Shown one piece after another: positions 1 to 38,565 of a stretch of DNA of 64,000 nucleotides. Location: the NCBI RefSeq assembly GCF_000522985.1, contig NZ_CP007128.1:5192220-5256219 (forward strand). The letters are read 5' to 3'. The notes beneath the pieces were generated by a model. The model did not search any database and had not been told where the DNA came from. It worked only from the letters and a program-made list of their open reading frames with translations. The position numbers and the translations under genes were made by a program. Within the stretch, counting starts at the first letter, position 1; every line of letters begins with the position of its first letter. The DNA is from Gemmatirosa kalamazoonensis. GTDB lineage: Bacteria; Gemmatimonadota; Gemmatimonadetes; Gemmatimonadales; Gemmatimonadaceae.

Positions 1-1495
1 TGAGCACGGGCGTCAGGTAGCGCACCTGCGCGGAGCTCGTCCACACGCGGTGCAGCAGGTCGTTGTAGTCGAGACCGAGGTTGAGGCGGTAGCGCAGGTT
101 GCCGACGATCTTCACCTCGCCGAACGCGGTGCCGATGACCTGGTTGGAGCGCGTGCGGTTGGAGTTGTTCGTCAGCACCGCGACCGGGTTCACGCCGTAG
201 TTCGGGTTCGCGTCGCTGCCGTAGCCCCAGCCGCCCGGGTTGTTCGGATCGCGGATCGGGATCGTCGGCAGCAGGCTCACGACGTCGATGAGCGGCAGCG
301 CCTGACCGCCGAAGATGCCGTTCGGGTACGCGCGCTGGTTCGACTGCGAGATGGCGAGCGCCTCACCGACGGTGATGCGGCCGCGCGTCGCGTCGGAGTT
401 CACGCGCACGCTGTAGCGGCGGAAGTCGGTGTTGATGACCGTGCCCTTCTGGTCGAGCACCGAGCCGCTCAGCAGGTAGCTCGCGCTCGTCGTGCCGCCG
501 GACGCGGTGAGGTTGTAGTTCTGGATCGCGCCCCGCTGGAACAGCGCGTCCTGCCAGTCGGTGTTGATCGACGCGCCGCCCGACACGCCCGCCGGCGGCG
601 TCTGCCCCGCGGCGGCGTACGCAGCCTTGAACACGTTCTGGAACTCGGCGGCGTTCATGAGCGGGATCCGCTTCGGGATCTGCTGGAAGCCGTAGTACGT
701 GTTCAGCGCGAAGCGGCTCGGCCCGTTCGCGCCGCGCTTCGTCGTGATGACGATGACGCCGTTCGACGCCTGCGCGCCGTACTGCGCGGCAGCGGAGGCG
801 TCCTTCAGGATGTTGATCGACGCGATGTCGTCGGGGTTGATGTTCGGGTTCTGCTGCCCGACGTACATGCCGTCGACGACGTAGAGCGGCGACGGGTTGC
901 CGAAGCCGTTCTGCCCGCGCACGACGATCGACGCGGGGCGACCGGGCTGGCCGCTCGCGGCGATCTGCACGCCGGGCGCGCGGCCGCGCAGCGCCTCCTC
1001 CACCGTGGCCACCTTCTGGTCCTGGATGTCGGAGGAGGTGACGGTGGAGACGGCGCCGGAGATGTCGCGGCGCTGCTCGTTCGTGTAGCCGACGACCGAC
1101 ACCGCGGTGAGCGTGGTGGCCGACGCGGTGAGCGTGACGTCGACGGTGAGCGTCTGGCCGTCGCCGACGGTGACCTGCTGGGTGACGGGCGTGTAGCCGA
1201 TGCGCGCGGCGCGCAGCGTGTACGTGCCGGCGGGGACGCCGCTGATGGAGTAGCGGCCGTCGTCGCCGGCCACCGCGCCGTAGCCGGTGCCGGTGAGCGC
1301 GACCTGTGCGCCGACGAGCGGCTGGCCGTTGTCGCCGCGCACGGTGCCGGTGACGCGTGCCGTACCGCGCGGCTGCTGCGCACCCGCCGCGGGGGCGAGC
1401 GCGGTGGTGGCCAGCGCAGCCGGCGCCCACGCGAGCCCGAGGGCGGTCAGCAGCCCTGCGGTCGCCCGCGCCGAGCGGTAGAAGGGGTAGATCAC
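1..1495 (-). CDS. SusC/RagA-like TonB-dependent outer-membrane receptor, 3' end beyond window
   Basis: The N-terminal half of a SusC-type receptor, running off the left edge. Such receptors import oligosaccharides or other large ligands across the outer membrane using TonB energy. Translation from GTG at 1495 gives a signal peptide, then a carboxypeptidase-regulatory-like beta domain (GTVRGDNGQPLVGAQV at about residues 45-60), then the plug domain with LYVVDGMYVG and the family signature ASNGVIVITTKRG at about residues 243-255. A GGAGGA ribosome-binding site (complement of 1503-1508) lies seven bases upstream and decides the start. It lies downstream of the lacI-type gene on the same strand, so galactoside uptake is a reasonable guess for its ligand. 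A SusD partner would be expected beyond the edge but cannot be seen. The family is certain; the substrate is inferred. Confidence 0.9.
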   Translation of the reverse strand, partial: MIYPFYRSARATAGLLTALGLAWAPAALATTALAPAAGAQQPRGTARVTGTVRGDNGQPLVGAQVALTGTGYGAVAGDDGRYSISGVPAGTYTLRAARIGYTPVTQQVTVGDGQTLTVDVTLTASATTLTAVSVVGYTNEQRRDISGAVSTVTSSDIQDQKVATVEEALRGRAPGVQIAASGQPGRPASIVVRGQNGFGNPSPLYVVDGMYVGQQNPNINPDDIASINILKDASAAAQYGAQASNGVIVITTKRGANGPSRFALNTYYGFQQIPKRIPLMNAAEFQNVFKAAYAAAGQTPPAGVSGGASINTDWQDALFQRGAIQNYNLTASGGTTSASYLLSGSVLDQKGTVINTDFRRYSVRVNSDATRGRITVGEALAISQSNQRAYPNGIFGGQALPLIDVVSLLPTIPIRDPNNPGGWGYGSDANPNYGVNPVAVLTNNSNRTRSNQVIGTAFGEVKIVGNLRYRLNLGLDYNDLLHRVWTSSAQVRYLTPVL

Positions 1496-30149: not shown

Positions 30150-32936
30150 TCAGGCGGCCTCCGCGCCGTGCCCGATTCCCTCGTTCAGCATCCGCGTGAT
30201 CTCCTCCGGCGGCACCGGGTGCGCGAAGAGGAAGCCCTGTCCGTACTCGCAGCCGAGCGCGCGGAGCTGCTCCTGCTGCTGTGGACGCGCGACGCCTTCG
30301 GCCACCGTGCGCAGCGCCAGCGAGTCGCCGAGCGCGATGATCGTGCGGGCGAGCGCGGCCTCGCTGCCGCCGCGGCACATGGCGTCGATGAAGCGGCGGT
30401 CGATCTTCAGCACGTCGAGCGGGAACTGCTGCAGGTAGTTCAGGCTCGCGTAGCCGGTGCCGAAGTCGTCGATCGCGAGCCGCGCGCCGAGCGCCTTCAG
30501 CGCGCGCAGCGTCTCCAGCGTCCCCTCGTCCTCCTGCAGGAACACCGTCTCGGTCAGCTCGAGCAGCAGCAGATGCGGCGGGAAGCCGCTGTCGCGCAGC
30601 GCGTCGCGCACGTCGTCGACGAAGCCCGGGTCGCGGAGCTGCAGCGGCGAGACGTTCACGGTGAGCGTGAGCGAGCGCATGCGGTCGAGCGAGCGGCGGC
30701 CGCCGACCCAGCCCGCGCCGTGGCGACACGCCTCGCGCAGCACCCAGCGGCCTAACGGCACGATGAGGCCCGTCTCCTCGGCGAGCGGCACGAACCGCGC
30801 GGGCGGCAGCACGCCGAGCTGCGGGTGTGCCCACCGCACCAGCGCCTCCACGCCCACGACGCGCTCGCCGTCGAGCTCCACGATCGGCTGGAAGTGCAGC
30901 AGCAGCTCGTCGCCCGTCGGCATGCCGCTCACCGCGGTGCGCAGCGCCGCCTCGAGCTCCAGCCGCTCCAGCGCGGCCTCCTGCATGCCGCGCTCGTACA
31001 TCACGTGCCGTCCCTTCCCGGCGCCCTTCGCGCGGTACATCGCGACGTCCGCGTTGCGCAGCAGCACGTCCGCCGTGGGGCGCTCGGTCTCGTCGCCCAC
31101 GCCGCCGCGCGCCACGCCGACGCTCGCGCCGACGAAGATCTCCTTGCCGTCGATGGTGACCGGCGCGCGCATCGCGCGCACGACGCGGTCGGCGACGACG
31201 AGGACGTCGTCGTCGCTGCGCACGTTCTCGAGCAGGATCGCGAACTCGTCGCCGCCGAGGCGCGCGACGGTGTCGCTGCCGCGCGTCGCGTTCAGCAGCC
31301 GCTCCGCCACGGCGCGCAGCAGGGTGTCGCCGGCCGCGTGGCCGAGAGAGTCGTTCACCTTCTTGAAGTCGTCGAGGTCGACGTAGATGATCGCGACGTT
31401 CGACGGGAGCCGGTCCGGTGCGGCGAGCGTGTGGTGGATGCGGTCGAGCAGACGCGCGCGGTTCGCGAGCCCGGTGAGCGGGTCGTGGAACGCCTGGTGG
31501 CTGAGACGCGTCTCGAGCTCCTTCCGCGCCGTGACGTCGTAGCACATGCCGACGAGCGTCACCGCGTCGTCGTGGTTGGTGCGGAAGCGCGAGATCGTGA
31601 GGCTGCACCAGATCTGCGCGCCCTCCCGATGCACGAACCGCTTCTCCACGGTGACGCTGTCGCGCCGGCCGGCGCGCAGCTCGGCCACCGGGCCGCGTGT
31701 GATGATCGCGTCCTCGGGCGGCGAGAACTCCGATGCGCGTCGGCCGATCAGCTCCGCGGCCGACCATCCGACGAGCCGCTCGAACGCCGGGTTCACCGCG
31801 TGGATGATCCCGTCGTCGTCGATGAACGTGATGCCGATCGCCGCCTGGTCGAACATCGCGCGGAAGCGCGCCTCGCTGGAGACGACGCGCGCCACGGTGG
31901 CGACGCGCTCCGTGACGTCGCGGATGGTGCACAACCCGCCGGCGATGCGGCCGTCGCTCGAGCGCACCGGCACGCACACGGCATCGAAGAAGCGCCACTC
32001 GGCGTCGCGCGACGCGCGGCCGCGGCACTCGTGCACGTGCGTCGGCTCGCCCCCGATCGCGCGCTCGTACGGCTTGCCGTGCTCGCCCCAGTCGATCTCC
32101 GCGTCGAAGTCGTCGAGGCGGCGGCCGAGCGCGTCGCGGCGCTCGACGCCCGTCCATCGCTCCATCGACGGGTTCCACTCGGTGACGCGCTGGTCGTCGT
32201 CGAACGCGTAGATCCCGTCGGACACCGACGCGACGAGCGACGTCGCGAACTCGCGCTCGTGCGACGTGGTCGCGTAGGCGCGCGCGAGCTGCTCGCGCGA
32301 CGCGACCACCTCGGCCACCAGACTGTCGGCGTGCCGCGACGCGGGGCGCACCACGGCGACCGCGCCGACGGCGAGCGCGGCGAGCATCGCGAGGACGAGC
32401 GCGATCTCCTGCACGCGGAGCGCGCTGATCTCGGCCTCGGATCCGGCGAGCACGTCGCGCCGCGCCGCGGCGAGGAGCCGGGCGAGCGTCAGCTGGCCCG
32501 CGACAATGCGGTGGCCGAGGGCGGCGTCGGGCGCGTCCGCGCCGAGGGCCGCGGCGTCGGCGAGGAGCCGGACGCGGACGGGGACGAGCGAGTCGAAGCG
32601 GGCGCGTACCTCGTCGGCCACCCCGGCCGGGGCGGTGGCGAGCGCCGCCGGCGTGTCGTGCGTCCCCTCGTCGCGCAGCTCCGCGGCGGCGGCGGCGAGC
32701 GTGCGGCGGGCGCCGTCGCGGGCGGCGGAGCCGACCGGCGTCTGCTCCAGCAGCGTCGCCGCCCCCGCGAGACGCTCGGACGCGAGCCGCTCCCGGCTCC
32801 AGCGCGCGATGAGCGCGTAGTGGCCGAGCTGGCGCGCCTGCGCCGCATGCACGAGCACCTGCCCCCCGATCGTCGCCGCCGACGCGATCGCGAAGACCGC
32901 GAGGTAGCGGTGGGTCAGGTTGGGGAGGCGGCTCAT
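30150..32936 (-). CDS. Membrane PAS-PAS-GGDEF-EAL cyclic-di-GMP protein
   Basis: A 928-residue signalling protein. Two transmembrane helices (about residues 10-30 and 185-205) flank a periplasmic helical sensor. Two PAS domains follow (about 240-350 and 365-490), then GGDEF with an intact RLGGDEFAIL (about 558-567), then EAL with GVEALVRWAHP (about 695) and the catalytic AIDDFGTGYASL. Both cyclase and phosphodiesterase motifs look intact, so it could make or degrade c-di-GMP depending on input. ATG 32936 starts MSRLPNLTHRYLAVF at the first membrane helix; upstream frame is low-complexity. It diverges from the blaI-type gene. Confidence 0.94.
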   Translation of the reverse strand: MSRLPNLTHRYLAVFAIASAATIGGQVLVHAAQARQLGHYALIARWSRERLASERLAGAATLLEQTPVGSAARDGARRTLAAAAAELRDEGTHDTPAALATAPAGVADEVRARFDSLVPVRVRLLADAAALGADAPDAALGHRIVAGQLTLARLLAAARRDVLAGSEAEISALRVQEIALVLAMLAALAVGAVAVVRPASRHADSLVAEVVASREQLARAYATTSHEREFATSLVASVSDGIYAFDDDQRVTEWNPSMERWTGVERRDALGRRLDDFDAEIDWGEHGKPYERAIGGEPTHVHECRGRASRDAEWRFFDAVCVPVRSSDGRIAGGLCTIRDVTERVATVARVVSSEARFRAMFDQAAIGITFIDDDGIIHAVNPAFERLVGWSAAELIGRRASEFSPPEDAIITRGPVAELRAGRRDSVTVEKRFVHREGAQIWCSLTISRFRTNHDDAVTLVGMCYDVTARKELETRLSHQAFHDPLTGLANRARLLDRIHHTLAAPDRLPSNVAIIYVDLDDFKKVNDSLGHAAGDTLLRAVAERLLNATRGSDTVARLGGDEFAILLENVRSDDDVLVVADRVVRAMRAPVTIDGKEIFVGASVGVARGGVGDETERPTADVLLRNADVAMYRAKGAGKGRHVMYERGMQEAALERLELEAALRTAVSGMPTGDELLLHFQPIVELDGERVVGVEALVRWAHPQLGVLPPARFVPLAEETGLIVPLGRWVLREACRHGAGWVGGRRSLDRMRSLTLTVNVSPLQLRDPGFVDDVRDALRDSGFPPHLLLLELTETVFLQEDEGTLETLRALKALGARLAIDDFGTGYASLNYLQQFPLDVLKIDRRFIDAMCRGGSEAALARTIIALGDSLALRTVAEGVARPQQQEQLRALGCEYGQGFLFAHPVPPEEITRMLNEGIGHGAEAA

Positions 32937-33101: not shown

Positions 33102-33119
33102 CAACTAGATTTCTAGTTG
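33102..33119. promoter_or_regulatory. BlaI-type operator 1
   Basis: CAACTAGATTTCTAGTTG is a perfect 8-2-8 palindrome, unusually AT-rich for this genome. It lies 65 bp before the blaI-type start. A perfect TTGACA (33117-33122) overlaps its right edge and could be the -35 of the operon. Confidence 0.75.
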
Positions 33120-33156: not shown

Positions 33157-33174
33157 CTACTAGAAATCTAGTTG
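33157..33174. promoter_or_regulatory. BlaI-type operator 2
   Basis: CTACTAGAAATCTAGTTG is the same palindrome with one mismatch. Its centre is 55 bp from that of operator 1, and it ends two bases before the GAGGG ribosome-binding site. Binding here would block both transcription and access to the gene start. Confidence 0.75.
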
Positions 33175-33183
33175 CGAGGGCAC

Positions 33184-33570
33184 ATGGCGGTCTCGTTCAC
33201 CGACCGGGAGCTCGACGTCATGGCGGTGCTGTGGGAGCGGGGGCCGTCCACGGTCGCGGAGGTGCGCGGCGCGCTGGACGACGACCTCGCGTACACGACC
33301 GTGCTGACCGTGCTGCGGACGCTCGAGGACAAGGGGTACGCCGGCCACCAGGAGGCGGGCCGCGCCTACCGTTACCACGCGCTGGTGGCGCGGGAGGCGG
33401 CGGGCCGCAGCGCCCTGCATCGGGTGCTCGGCAAGCTGTTCGCCGGGTCGCCGGAGCTGCTCCTCACGCAGCTCGTGGACGAGCGCGGGCTGGCTCCCGA
33501 CGAGCTGGCCCGGATGCGCGCCCTGCTCGACGACCGGCTGCGCGGCCTGGGCGAGGAGGACGACGCATGA
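33184..33570 (+). CDS. BlaI/MecI-family repressor
   Basis: A 128-residue winged-helix repressor: FTDRELDVMAVLWERGPSTV, then VRGALDDDLAYTTVLTVLRT (recognition helix), then LEDKGYAGHQEAGRAYRYHA. The C-terminal dimerisation helix contains the site where family members are cleaved when the partner peptidase is activated. ATG 33184 has GAGGG (33176-33180) three bases upstream. Two 18-bp operators precede it. Its TGA overlaps the ATG of the M56 peptidase gene, the standard BlaI-BlaR1 pairing. There is no beta-lactamase nearby, so the regulon is unknown. Confidence 0.93.
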   Translation: MAVSFTDRELDVMAVLWERGPSTVAEVRGALDDDLAYTTVLTVLRTLEDKGYAGHQEAGRAYRYHALVAREAAGRSALHRVLGKLFAGSPELLLTQLVDERGLAPDELARMRALLDDRLRGLGEEDDA

Positions 33571-35234
33571 CCGCGCTGTGGATGGGCTATGCCGTGCTGC
33601 TCGCGACGCTGCTCGGCCTCGCGGCGGCGTGCGTCGAGCGCGCGCTGCGCACGGCGCGACGGGCGGCGCGCGTCGTGTGGGTGGTGGCGCTCGCGGGGTC
33701 GCTCGCGGCGCCGGCCGGGGCCTGGGTCGCGCGGCGCCACGTGTCGGCGTCCCCTGCCCCCGTGCCGACGACCGCCGCCGCCGCGTCGCCGGCGACGCTC
33801 TCGGCGCTGCTCGCCCGGGCGCGCGTTCGCGAGATCGCCCCCGACGACGCGGCCCGCTGGCGGGCGCTCGACCATCCGCTGCTCGCCGTGTGGCTCGGCG
33901 CGTCGCTGCTGTCGATCGGCTGGCTCGGACTGTCGCACCGCCGCCTCCGCACGGCGCTCCGCGCGTGGCGCTCGGCCACGGTCGCCGGCGAGGACGTGGT
34001 GCTGACGCCGGGCACCGGGCCGGCGGCGGTGGGGAGCGAGGGCGGGCGGATCGTGCTGCCGACGTGGGCGCTCGCGCTCGCGCCGGACGACCTGGCGCTC
34101 ATGCTCGCCCACGAGCGCTCGCACCTGCGGGCGCGCGATCCACAGCTGCTGGCCGGCGCGGCGCTCGCCGTCGCGCTCGCGCCGTGGAACCCGGCGCTGT
34201 GGTGGCAGCTCCGCCGGCTGCGGCTCGCCGTGGAGCTCGACTGCGACCGGCGCGTGCTGCGCCGGCATCCGGACGTCGCCCGCTACGGGGCACTCCTGCT
34301 CGACGTCGCGCGCCGGGGCACGGCCGCGCGGCTGCCGCTCGCCGCGGCGCTCAGCATCCAATCATCCGCACTCGAACGGAGGATCCGCACGATGACCACC
34401 CGCCGTCCCCGCCACCCGCTCGCGCGCGCGCTCGTCCTCGGTGCGTTAGGCACCGGTCTCGTGGCGGCCGCATGCGAGGCGCCGCGCCCGCTGGCGCCCC
34501 GCCCCGAGTCGCGCGTGCCGCTGTCCGCGATCACGAACGCGGCCCCGCAGGTGGAGCGGCGCGAGGGCGAGCCGACGATCGACCGCGTGCGGCTCGCGAT
34601 CAAGCAGTTCATGCCGACGGTGGCGAGCGGCGCCGAGTCGCCGGGCCGGCTGTGGTTCGTGTCCGACGAGACCGGAAAGGTCGTGAAGGCGGCGTTCGAC
34701 GCGGGCACGGGCAAGGACGGAGCGCTGCGCAGCCCGAAGCTGCGCGTGACGCTCGACTCGCAGACCGTGCTCGAGGCGAAGGACGCGATCGTGCAGTCGC
34801 CCGCGCAGCCGGAGTTCGTCGCCACGATGGACCCGTCGTCGATCGCGACGGTGGACGTGATGAAGCTCGGCCCGGGGAGCGTGACGAAGGACAGCGTCGC
34901 CGTGATCTGGATCGTGAAGAAGCCCGCCGGCGCGGCGACGGCGCCGGTCACGCCGCGCGCCGCGCTGAAGCGATCGGGTGTCGCGCTGACGTCGCCGCCC
35001 GACACCGCGACGCCGACGCCGAACGCGGTCCGGATGACGGGGCCGAACGGCGAGTCGCCCATCTTCATCGTCGACGGCGTGGTCGTGCCCGCGGGCCCCG
35101 ACGGGCGTCCGCCGCTGCCGGCACCCGACAAGATCGAGTCGGTCGAGGTCTTCAAGGGTCCCGCGGCGGTGAAGCTCTACGGCGACAGCGCGAGCAAGGG
35201 CGTCGTGAAGGTGACGACGAAGAAGCCCGATTGA
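33567..35234 (+). CDS. BlaR1-like M56 peptidase with C-terminal TonB-plug-like domain
   Basis: A 555-residue membrane protein. The N-terminal half is an M56 (BlaR1/MecR1) peptidase: membrane helices (LWMGYAVLLATLLGLAAACV; LLAVWLGASLLSIGWLGL) and the zinc motif HERSH near residues 181-185 in MLAHERSHLRARD, followed by LAVELDCDRRVL. A further hydrophobic segment (LVLGALGTGLVAAACE) precedes the extracytoplasmic part. Instead of a penicillin sensor, the C-terminus ends PIFIVDGVVV, DKIESVEVFKGPAAVKLYGD, then GVVKVTTKK, the hallmark of a TonB-receptor plug. It presumably senses an envelope signal and cleaves the co-encoded repressor. The plug-like tail's role is not known. Confidence 0.9.
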   Translation: MTALWMGYAVLLATLLGLAAACVERALRTARRAARVVWVVALAGSLAAPAGAWVARRHVSASPAPVPTTAAAASPATLSALLARARVREIAPDDAARWRALDHPLLAVWLGASLLSIGWLGLSHRRLRTALRAWRSATVAGEDVVLTPGTGPAAVGSEGGRIVLPTWALALAPDDLALMLAHERSHLRARDPQLLAGAALAVALAPWNPALWWQLRRLRLAVELDCDRRVLRRHPDVARYGALLLDVARRGTAARLPLAAALSIQSSALERRIRTMTTRRPRHPLARALVLGALGTGLVAAACEAPRPLAPRPESRVPLSAITNAAPQVERREGEPTIDRVRLAIKQFMPTVASGAESPGRLWFVSDETGKVVKAAFDAGTGKDGALRSPKLRVTLDSQTVLEAKDAIVQSPAQPEFVATMDPSSIATVDVMKLGPGSVTKDSVAVIWIVKKPAGAATAPVTPRAALKRSGVALTSPPDTATPTPNAVRMTGPNGESPIFIVDGVVVPAGPDGRPPLPAPDKIESVEVFKGPAAVKLYGDSASKGVVKVTTKKPD

Positions 35235-35313
35235 ACCGCAGAGGACGCAGAGGCCGCAGAGGAGAACCAATTGGTGTTGGTTTCCTCTGCGGCCCTCTGC
35301 GTCCTCTGCGGTT
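35234..35313. repeat. Hairpin of CGCAGAGGA words between convergent genes
   Basis: AACCGCAGAGGACGCAGAGG and further words face their complements ending at 35313. The structure is nearly perfect (one insertion, one substitution) with TTGG/CCAA at the tip. The first base is the last base of the M56 stop codon. I recall similar CGCAGAGGA hairpins from cyanobacteria and planctomycetes; that needs a search. Confidence 0.8.
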
Positions 35314-38363: not shown

Positions 38364-38365
38364 CG

Positions 38366-38485
38366 ACGATTCGCTGCGGGACGATTCACTGCGGGACGAT
38401 TCACTGCGGGACGATTCACTGCGGGACGATTCACTGCGGGACGAACTACGGCGGGACGATCTACGGCGGGACGATCGACTGCGGG
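38366..38485. repeat. Eight tandem copies of a 15-bp unit
   Basis: Copies of ACGATTCACTGCGGG run head to tail right after the sirtuin stop. Copies 2-5 are identical and copies 1 and 6-8 carry one to four changes, so the array grew recently in the middle. The unit length is a multiple of three, so frames stay open through it (DDSLR repeats), but no gene is supported. No hairpin partner of the unit is seen. Confidence 0.9.
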
Positions 38486-38565
38486 ATCGCGCGGCGGCGA
38501 GCGGAGGCGAGACGCGCGTTCGGCGCGCGGGCGCGCGGCGCCTCGCGGGGACGAGCCTCCCAGAG

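Follow-up and report, generated by a model that had tools for sequence, protein, structure and literature searches.

An apparent BlaI/M56 operon of Gemmatirosa kalamazoonensis with a TonB-receptor half-plug as its periplasmic domain and a probable internal lipoprotein start

We analysed a 64,000-nucleotide stretch of the Gemmatirosa kalamazoonensis genome (hereafter, the window). Judging from its sequence, one locus in the window is a BlaI/M56 (BlaR1-type) repressor/antirepressor operon, in which the periplasmic input domain is one half of a TonB-receptor plug (Table 1), plausibly the input of a Ton-linked periplasmic sensor. The peptidase gene contains a conserved internal Shine-Dalgarno (SD) sequence and ATG, together with a lipobox and a region of weak mRNA structure, so it probably makes two products, a protease that acts as a membrane sensor and, separately, the half-plug as a free lipoprotein.

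Table 1. Features of the BlaI/M56 half-plug operon (window positions)
Feature	Positions	Strand	Basis
BlaI operator 1, CAACTAGATTTCTAGTTG, perfect 8-2-8 palindrome	33102-33119	.	motif ACTA-N6-TAGT
BlaI operator 2, TACTAGAAATCTAGTTG	33158-33174	.	motif ACTA-N6-TAGT
blaI-type repressor gene, ATG start	33184-33570	+	PF03965 (E 4.3e-30), sequence
M56 (BlaR1-type) peptidase with periplasmic half-plug tail, 555 aa, long product	33567-35234	+	Pfam, sequence
HEXXH zinc site HERSH, H182-H186	34110-34124	+	relatives' alignment
Putative equivalent of the S. aureus BlaR1 S283/F284 autocleavage bond (A261/L262)	34347-34352	+	inferred, ungapped count from RR motif aligned to 8exp
Internal SD, CGGAGG in codons R271-R272	34377-34382	+	codon comparison, 16S 3' end
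Proposed second in-frame ORF from ATG276, 280-aa half-plug prolipoprotein (MTTRRPRHPLARALVLGALGTGLVAAAC...)	34392-35234	+	inferred translation
TM4 of long product, predicted lipoprotein signal peptide of short product	34392-34472	+	sequence
Lipobox Cys303 (AAAC303)	34473-34475	+	relatives' alignment
First tail domain, divergent first half-plug copy (DPSSIATVDVMK...VAVIWIVKK)	34641-34922	+	hhalign
C-terminal half-plug (IFIVDGVVV...DKIESVEVFKGPAAVKLYGD...GVVKVTTKK)	35040-35231	+	Pfam, model, Foldseek, profile search

Peptidase, repressor and operators

The peptidase gene occupies exactly the frame given in an earlier, sequence-only reading of the window, from the ATG to the stop, and is preceded by an SD sequence, GGAGG, 7 nt before its ATG. 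The assignment of the product to BlaR1-like peptidases in the same reading is borne out by a PF05569 match over residues 13-274 (E 6e-19; 68.7 bits for the 555-aa protein, vs a curated cut-off of 31) and by the HEXXH motif; H182, E183, H186 and E223 are invariant among the relatives. The protein is not a BlaR1 beta-lactam sensor (32.8 bits against NF000326, cut-off 400), and a Pfam scan of its 555 aa yielded no transpeptidase-type match and hence no penicillin-binding sensor domain. The repressor that such a peptidase was supposed to control is encoded upstream, in a blaI gene of which the 3' end and the M56 start codon overlap by ATGA; control of the operon by this repressor is a prediction from this gene pair and its operators.

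The operator suggested previously, CAACTAGA, proved to be real, with two sites in front of blaI. The motif that the two have in common, ACTA-N6-TAGT, is also present in front of blaI in many relatives. When the entire 7.48 Mb genome was searched for genes with this operator, as had been proposed, four sites were found, compared with zero for the reversed control pattern across the same 7.48 Mb, and three of the four lie at the two M56 operons. Because the operator is almost confined to these operons, the BlaI regulon looks minimal, with an output that would be mostly self-directed. The fourth operator-like site (L193, C2:24361-24376) immediately precedes a gene whose product has a signal peptide and, judged by eye, resembles deacetylases of the PIG-L/LmbE type; this gene is a possible further member of the regulon. 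An upstream scan for sigma-70 promoters gave no match.

On the other side of the operators, a divergent PAS-GGDEF-EAL gene (30153-32936, minus strand) starts at about 32936, so that its upstream region contains the BlaI operators, and it might be co-regulated.

The half-plug tail and its relatives

The C-terminal tail of the peptidase, interpreted previously as a TonB-receptor plug, matches PF07715 over residues 465-546 with 35.6-39.5 bits (cut-off 23.9). The match covers profile positions 25/27-107 only, rather than the complete plug (1-107), leaving the N-terminal quarter of the plug unmatched. Thus, the tail is indeed plug-like, but it is only a half-plug that lacks the first part of the domain as well as the barrel: no barrel family matches the protein, which ends right after the half-plug, in agreement with the notion of a plug detached from its barrel. 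The comparison with the SusC-like receptor at the edge of the window (2-1495, minus strand) on which that notion was based is valid because this receptor has a complete plug (profile 2-107) along with CarboxypepD_reg. With the SusC/RagA receptors (PF07715, TIGR04057), the tail shares the DG...IESVEVFKGPAAVKLYGD...GVVKVTTKK core and, likely, the fold; unlike them, it has no barrel, matches the plug profile from 25 to 107 only and is attached to a peptidase. The SusC/RagA signature TIGR04057 stays below its cut-off on the tail (30.9-34.3 vs 46.2 bits).

In a sequence search of the PDB, a profile built from 12 relatives matches SusC/RagA plugs (E 9e-14 for the best). The structure model, for which 21 tails were used, reaches confidence over the last 64 residues only (pLDDT 83-96), and these match plugs best. 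Foldseek puts TonB-dependent receptors in each of the first 19 places among PDB entries, albeit at modest scores (best E 0.018, prob 1.0; VIA-align Z of at most 5.2 across 65 residues). The first tail domain is a divergent half-plug copy, as indicated by hhalign probabilities of 79-83% against the half-plug repeats of the relatives, with moderate pLDDT. In those relatives, two half-plugs occur in tandem (hhalign copy 1 vs copy 2, 97%, E 1.7e-11), and the motif is found three times in one tail (L073).

A survey of M56 tails detected the half-plug in orthologues. Among 68 non-redundant tails of the Gemmatimonadota group, 28 contain Plug, 15 TonB_C, one ExbD/TolR and one CarboxypepD_reg; with 28 plug tails in this set, the tail is not an accident of one genome. 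The Gemmatimonadota relatives carry one to three half-plug copies, TonB_C, or both, and in two tails (L014 and L098) TonB_C is combined with a half-plug below the Pfam threshold. By these domain matches, one M56 group is a repeated user of parts of the Ton machinery as the periplasmic domain. Plasmid records yielded no relative. The tail with ExbD/TolR is that of L102:5892-6572, and the one with CarboxypepD_reg that of L087:5580-6248.

The Gemmatirosa genome itself has six M56-type matches, among them L006, which resembles M48 more. TonB_C forms the tail of the closest paralogue, 63 kb away; the others have tails of different kinds. This paralogue (L005, around C2:5288557-5290500) belongs to a blaI-M56 operon with its own operator, TACTAGGCCCGTAGTT, and combines the TonB C-terminal tail with a lipobox, AAAC, and the same CGG AGG ATC ... 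ATG internal start. In three further M56 proteins of this genome (L001, L002 and L003), the C-terminal ends are made up of SDGDK-type, DUF4097-like and HEAT-like repeats, and the internal start motif was not seen in these three.

Codon evidence for an internal start

The M56 peptidase domain ends with L-E-R-R-I/L-x-x-M, which is followed by the fourth helix, TM4. In the window gene, the corresponding codons are GAA CGG AGG ATC CGC ACG ATG, so that GGAGG is positioned 9 nt before ATG276 and just before TM4; the 16S rRNA of the same genome ends with CACCTCCTTA, the canonical anti-SD sequence. Arg272 is invariant in the Gemmatimonadota-group homologues (68/68), and therefore only its codon, which is free to vary, is informative. 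This codon is AGG or AGA (AGR) in 64/68 genes, whereas AGR accounts for 6.7% of the remaining 2783 Arg codons of these regions and for 4/67, about 1/62 and 4/68 codons at control invariant arginines. The difference persists after clustering at 45% identity (22/24 vs 3/69 for the controls, Fisher p 5e-16), and at E270, GAA is preferred over GAG (p 1e-11).

Several properties of the mRNA point in the same direction. The internal site has the lowest mean anti-SD energy across the aligned M56 region (-8.2, with a mean of -2.0 and s.d. of 1.1). Ranked gene by gene, it comes first in 9/68 only, but GGAGG is common in GC-rich genes, which makes the per-gene rank weak evidence, and it was replaced by the aligned mean and by the codon test. 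GC3 dips at codons 264-284, and the mRNA folds more weakly at the internal site (z +1.7 +/- 0.06, n=65); a fall in GC3 and weak folding are usual at true translation starts. The SD, a start codon and a strict lipobox are combined in 49 of the 68 homologues, and in the whole sample, ATG, GTG or TTG is found at the right distance in 90/97 tailed AGR genes. In other Gemmatimonadota subfamilies, AGR comes with ATG, GTG or TTG at slightly shifted offsets (e.g. L144, L146, L183 and L190). This site has several marks of an internal start: an SD conserved beyond the protein constraint, a start codon at a suitable distance and an unstructured region.

A tail-less M56 clade, in which TM4 is kept, has AGR in 0/11 genes and usually no Met at that place, and three tailed relatives in which TM4 does not end in a lipobox (L015, L016 and L020) are encoded without the AGR codon. 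Tail loss is too rare among the 152 M56s for a tree-based test of the association between tail and AGR, so that an independent-pairs comparison, with 3 pairs, has no power. Among the proteobacterial genes (Dyella, Luteibacter and others), Met hardly varies and AGR is present in 12/26 vs a 9% background, an enrichment that is not decisive; Met has in part a protein-level reason there. The proteobacterial M56 proteins (L044-L115; Dyella, Luteibacter, Rhodanobacter, Paraburkholderia, Massilia) have tails that open with 'LDRYxGxYxxS', a conserved Met before TM4 and AxA-like TM4 ends, with AGR in about half of the genes.

The segment that starts at Met276, MTTRRPRHPLARALVLGALGTGLVAAAC, reads as a textbook example of a lipoprotein signal peptide, with a charged n-region, a hydrophobic stretch and a lipobox Cys, and lipidation is predicted. 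The lipobox Cys is found in 11/12 members of group A1 of the relatives and in 21/21 plug-tail members of group A2. Hence, the description of the plug as fused to the peptidase in the sequence-only reading stands for the M56 protein, but given the conserved SD/ATG and the lipobox, the tail is probably a separate lipoprotein as well. The existence of the short product from Met276 appears likely. A split form, with a tail-less M56 gene followed by a separate lipoprotein gene, was not encountered in the 11 tail-less loci read. A search of the literature that covered a minority of the subscription journals found nothing on M56/BlaR1 proteins with a plug, TonB or an internal start, and in the literature found, a conserved internal start with a lipoprotein signal is not described for the M56 family, including BlaR1.

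Alternatives and the proposed circuit

The conserved codons could also be read without a second start, if the full-length M56-plug protein is the sole product and a translational pause, brought about by the AGG codons and the weakly structured mRNA, aids TM4 insertion or peptidase folding. Such a reading gains from seven tailed M56s (L145, L148-L150, L153, L171 and L191) in which AGR occurs without the usual start codon, that is, with AUC/AUU or none, so that the element could have a non-AUG start or another role, such as a translational pause, and also from the near-invariance of Met276 in Proteobacteria even without AGR. However, the tail-less M56s have the same fourth helix and yet no AGR, and a pause does not explain why a start codon stands at the right distance, why the mRNA is weakly structured or why there is a lipobox; moreover, SD-like pausing within coding regions is itself disputed. 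We regard the pause as distinctly improbable. The half-plug lipoprotein could, instead, be freed from the full chain after translation, by self-cleavage of the M56 protein around A261/L262 or by LspA at the lipobox. The BlaR1 protein of S. aureus, a domain-swapped dimer, undergoes self-cleavage in cis between Ser283 and Phe284, within the loop that precedes helices 9 and 10 (PMC9834060), and this bond maps 14 residues before Met276; the lipobox on TM4 would be accessible. Release of this kind, which leaves the conserved SD codons and the initiation-like mRNA unexplained, seems to us somewhat unlikely, and it can work together with internal initiation. With the two sites so close, internal initiation would make almost the same C-terminal fragment as self-cleavage, in a form ready for Sec export and lipidation.

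A different question is whether the half-plug has anything to do with the Ton system. It might be a structural leftover without a Ton role, in a protein that senses, for example, misfolded outer-membrane proteins or peptidoglycan. Indeed, the M56 tails vary widely, including, within the Gemmatirosa genome, the HEAT-like, DUF4097-like and SDGDK repeats, and many relatives have tails without any Ton domain (31/67 without plug or TonB_C by motif). Conversely, Plug, TonB_C and ExbD modules are used repeatedly by one M56 group, and the tail core, DG...I..VEV.KG...G.I..TTK, is conserved among the relatives; the leftover is a possibility of some weight, albeit not one that we favour. The recurrence of Ton-machinery tails lends general support, short of proof, to a putative sensor of receptor or TonB status, as originally proposed: the link to Ton is strengthened by the tails with TonB_C, with TonB_C plus a half-plug and with ExbD/TolR.

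Taken as a whole, a BlaI/M56 half-plug operon with two products from one frame and a derepression circuit is the best explanation, one that we hold to be moderately probable. The tests that support it concern the domain make-up, the operator, the conserved internal start signals and the lipobox, and we infer the existence of both products, the cleavage of BlaI, the half-plug's partner and which way the signal runs. In this circuit, BlaI would repress its own operon from the two operators. The long product, from Met1, would be a zinc peptidase that spans the membrane with four helices and exposes the half-plug to the periplasm, and the short one, from Met276, would use TM4 as a lipoprotein signal peptide to yield a free half-plug anchored by Cys303. 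An envelope event that alters the contact of the half-plug with a Ton component or a receptor would activate the peptidase, which would cut BlaI and derepress the operon, supplying more sensor and more free half-plug lipoprotein. The latter would share the Ton-related partner of the tethered copy and would either determine the threshold or execute the response. It is conceivable, although on present evidence unlikely, that the M56 genes of Gemmatimonadota are generally two-in-one, with a free Ton-derived lipoprotein (half-plug, TonB_C or ExbD) that competes with or complements the tethered copy, so that the operon would gauge and adjust Ton or receptor occupancy by feedback and would itself be nearly the whole regulon.

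The idea of reading the state of an outer-membrane receptor via a periplasmic contact is shared with the Ton-linked FecR/FecA regulation, where FecR is an anti-sigma factor read by the signalling domain of the receptor; here, in contrast, it is the regulator that carries the plug-like part. Like the S. aureus BlaR1/BlaI and MecR1/MecI systems (M56; PDB 8exp), the locus has a blaI-M56 pair, a cytoplasmic HEXXH...E peptidase, four helices and, across the membrane, a C-terminal sensor, and the RR motifs align; it differs in having a half-plug and no penicillin-binding sensor domain, and in its Gram-negative host. The S. aureus residue aligned with Met276 is the Ile in 'RRLINI'. In-frame internal starts that give a C-terminal product have been demonstrated for Shigella Spa33 (PMC6925163) and archaeal Cas11b (PMC11899642). 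As in these cases, one frame would give two products, the short one being the C-terminal domain; unlike in them, the short product is predicted here, and it would be exported and lipidated, with the last helix of the long form as its signal peptide.

M56/BlaI systems are chiefly familiar as sensors of beta-lactams, and a group with Ton-derived sensor domains offers a concrete candidate signal among the many Gram-negative ones. If the internal start is true, genes annotated as encoding one protein make two, and such cases can be found only through conservation at the codon level. The SD-codon test at an invariant Arg is applicable to other membrane sensors.

Two repeats were observed downstream of the operon. 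Directly after the M56 stop, between convergent genes, there is an inverted repeat of CTCTGCG units (35235-35313; 3 matches vs 0.03 expected), which could be a terminator or a mobile repeat. Further on, just downstream of a sirtuin-like gene, a 15-bp tandem repeat, GACGATTCACTGCGG, is present in 8 copies (38365-38486).
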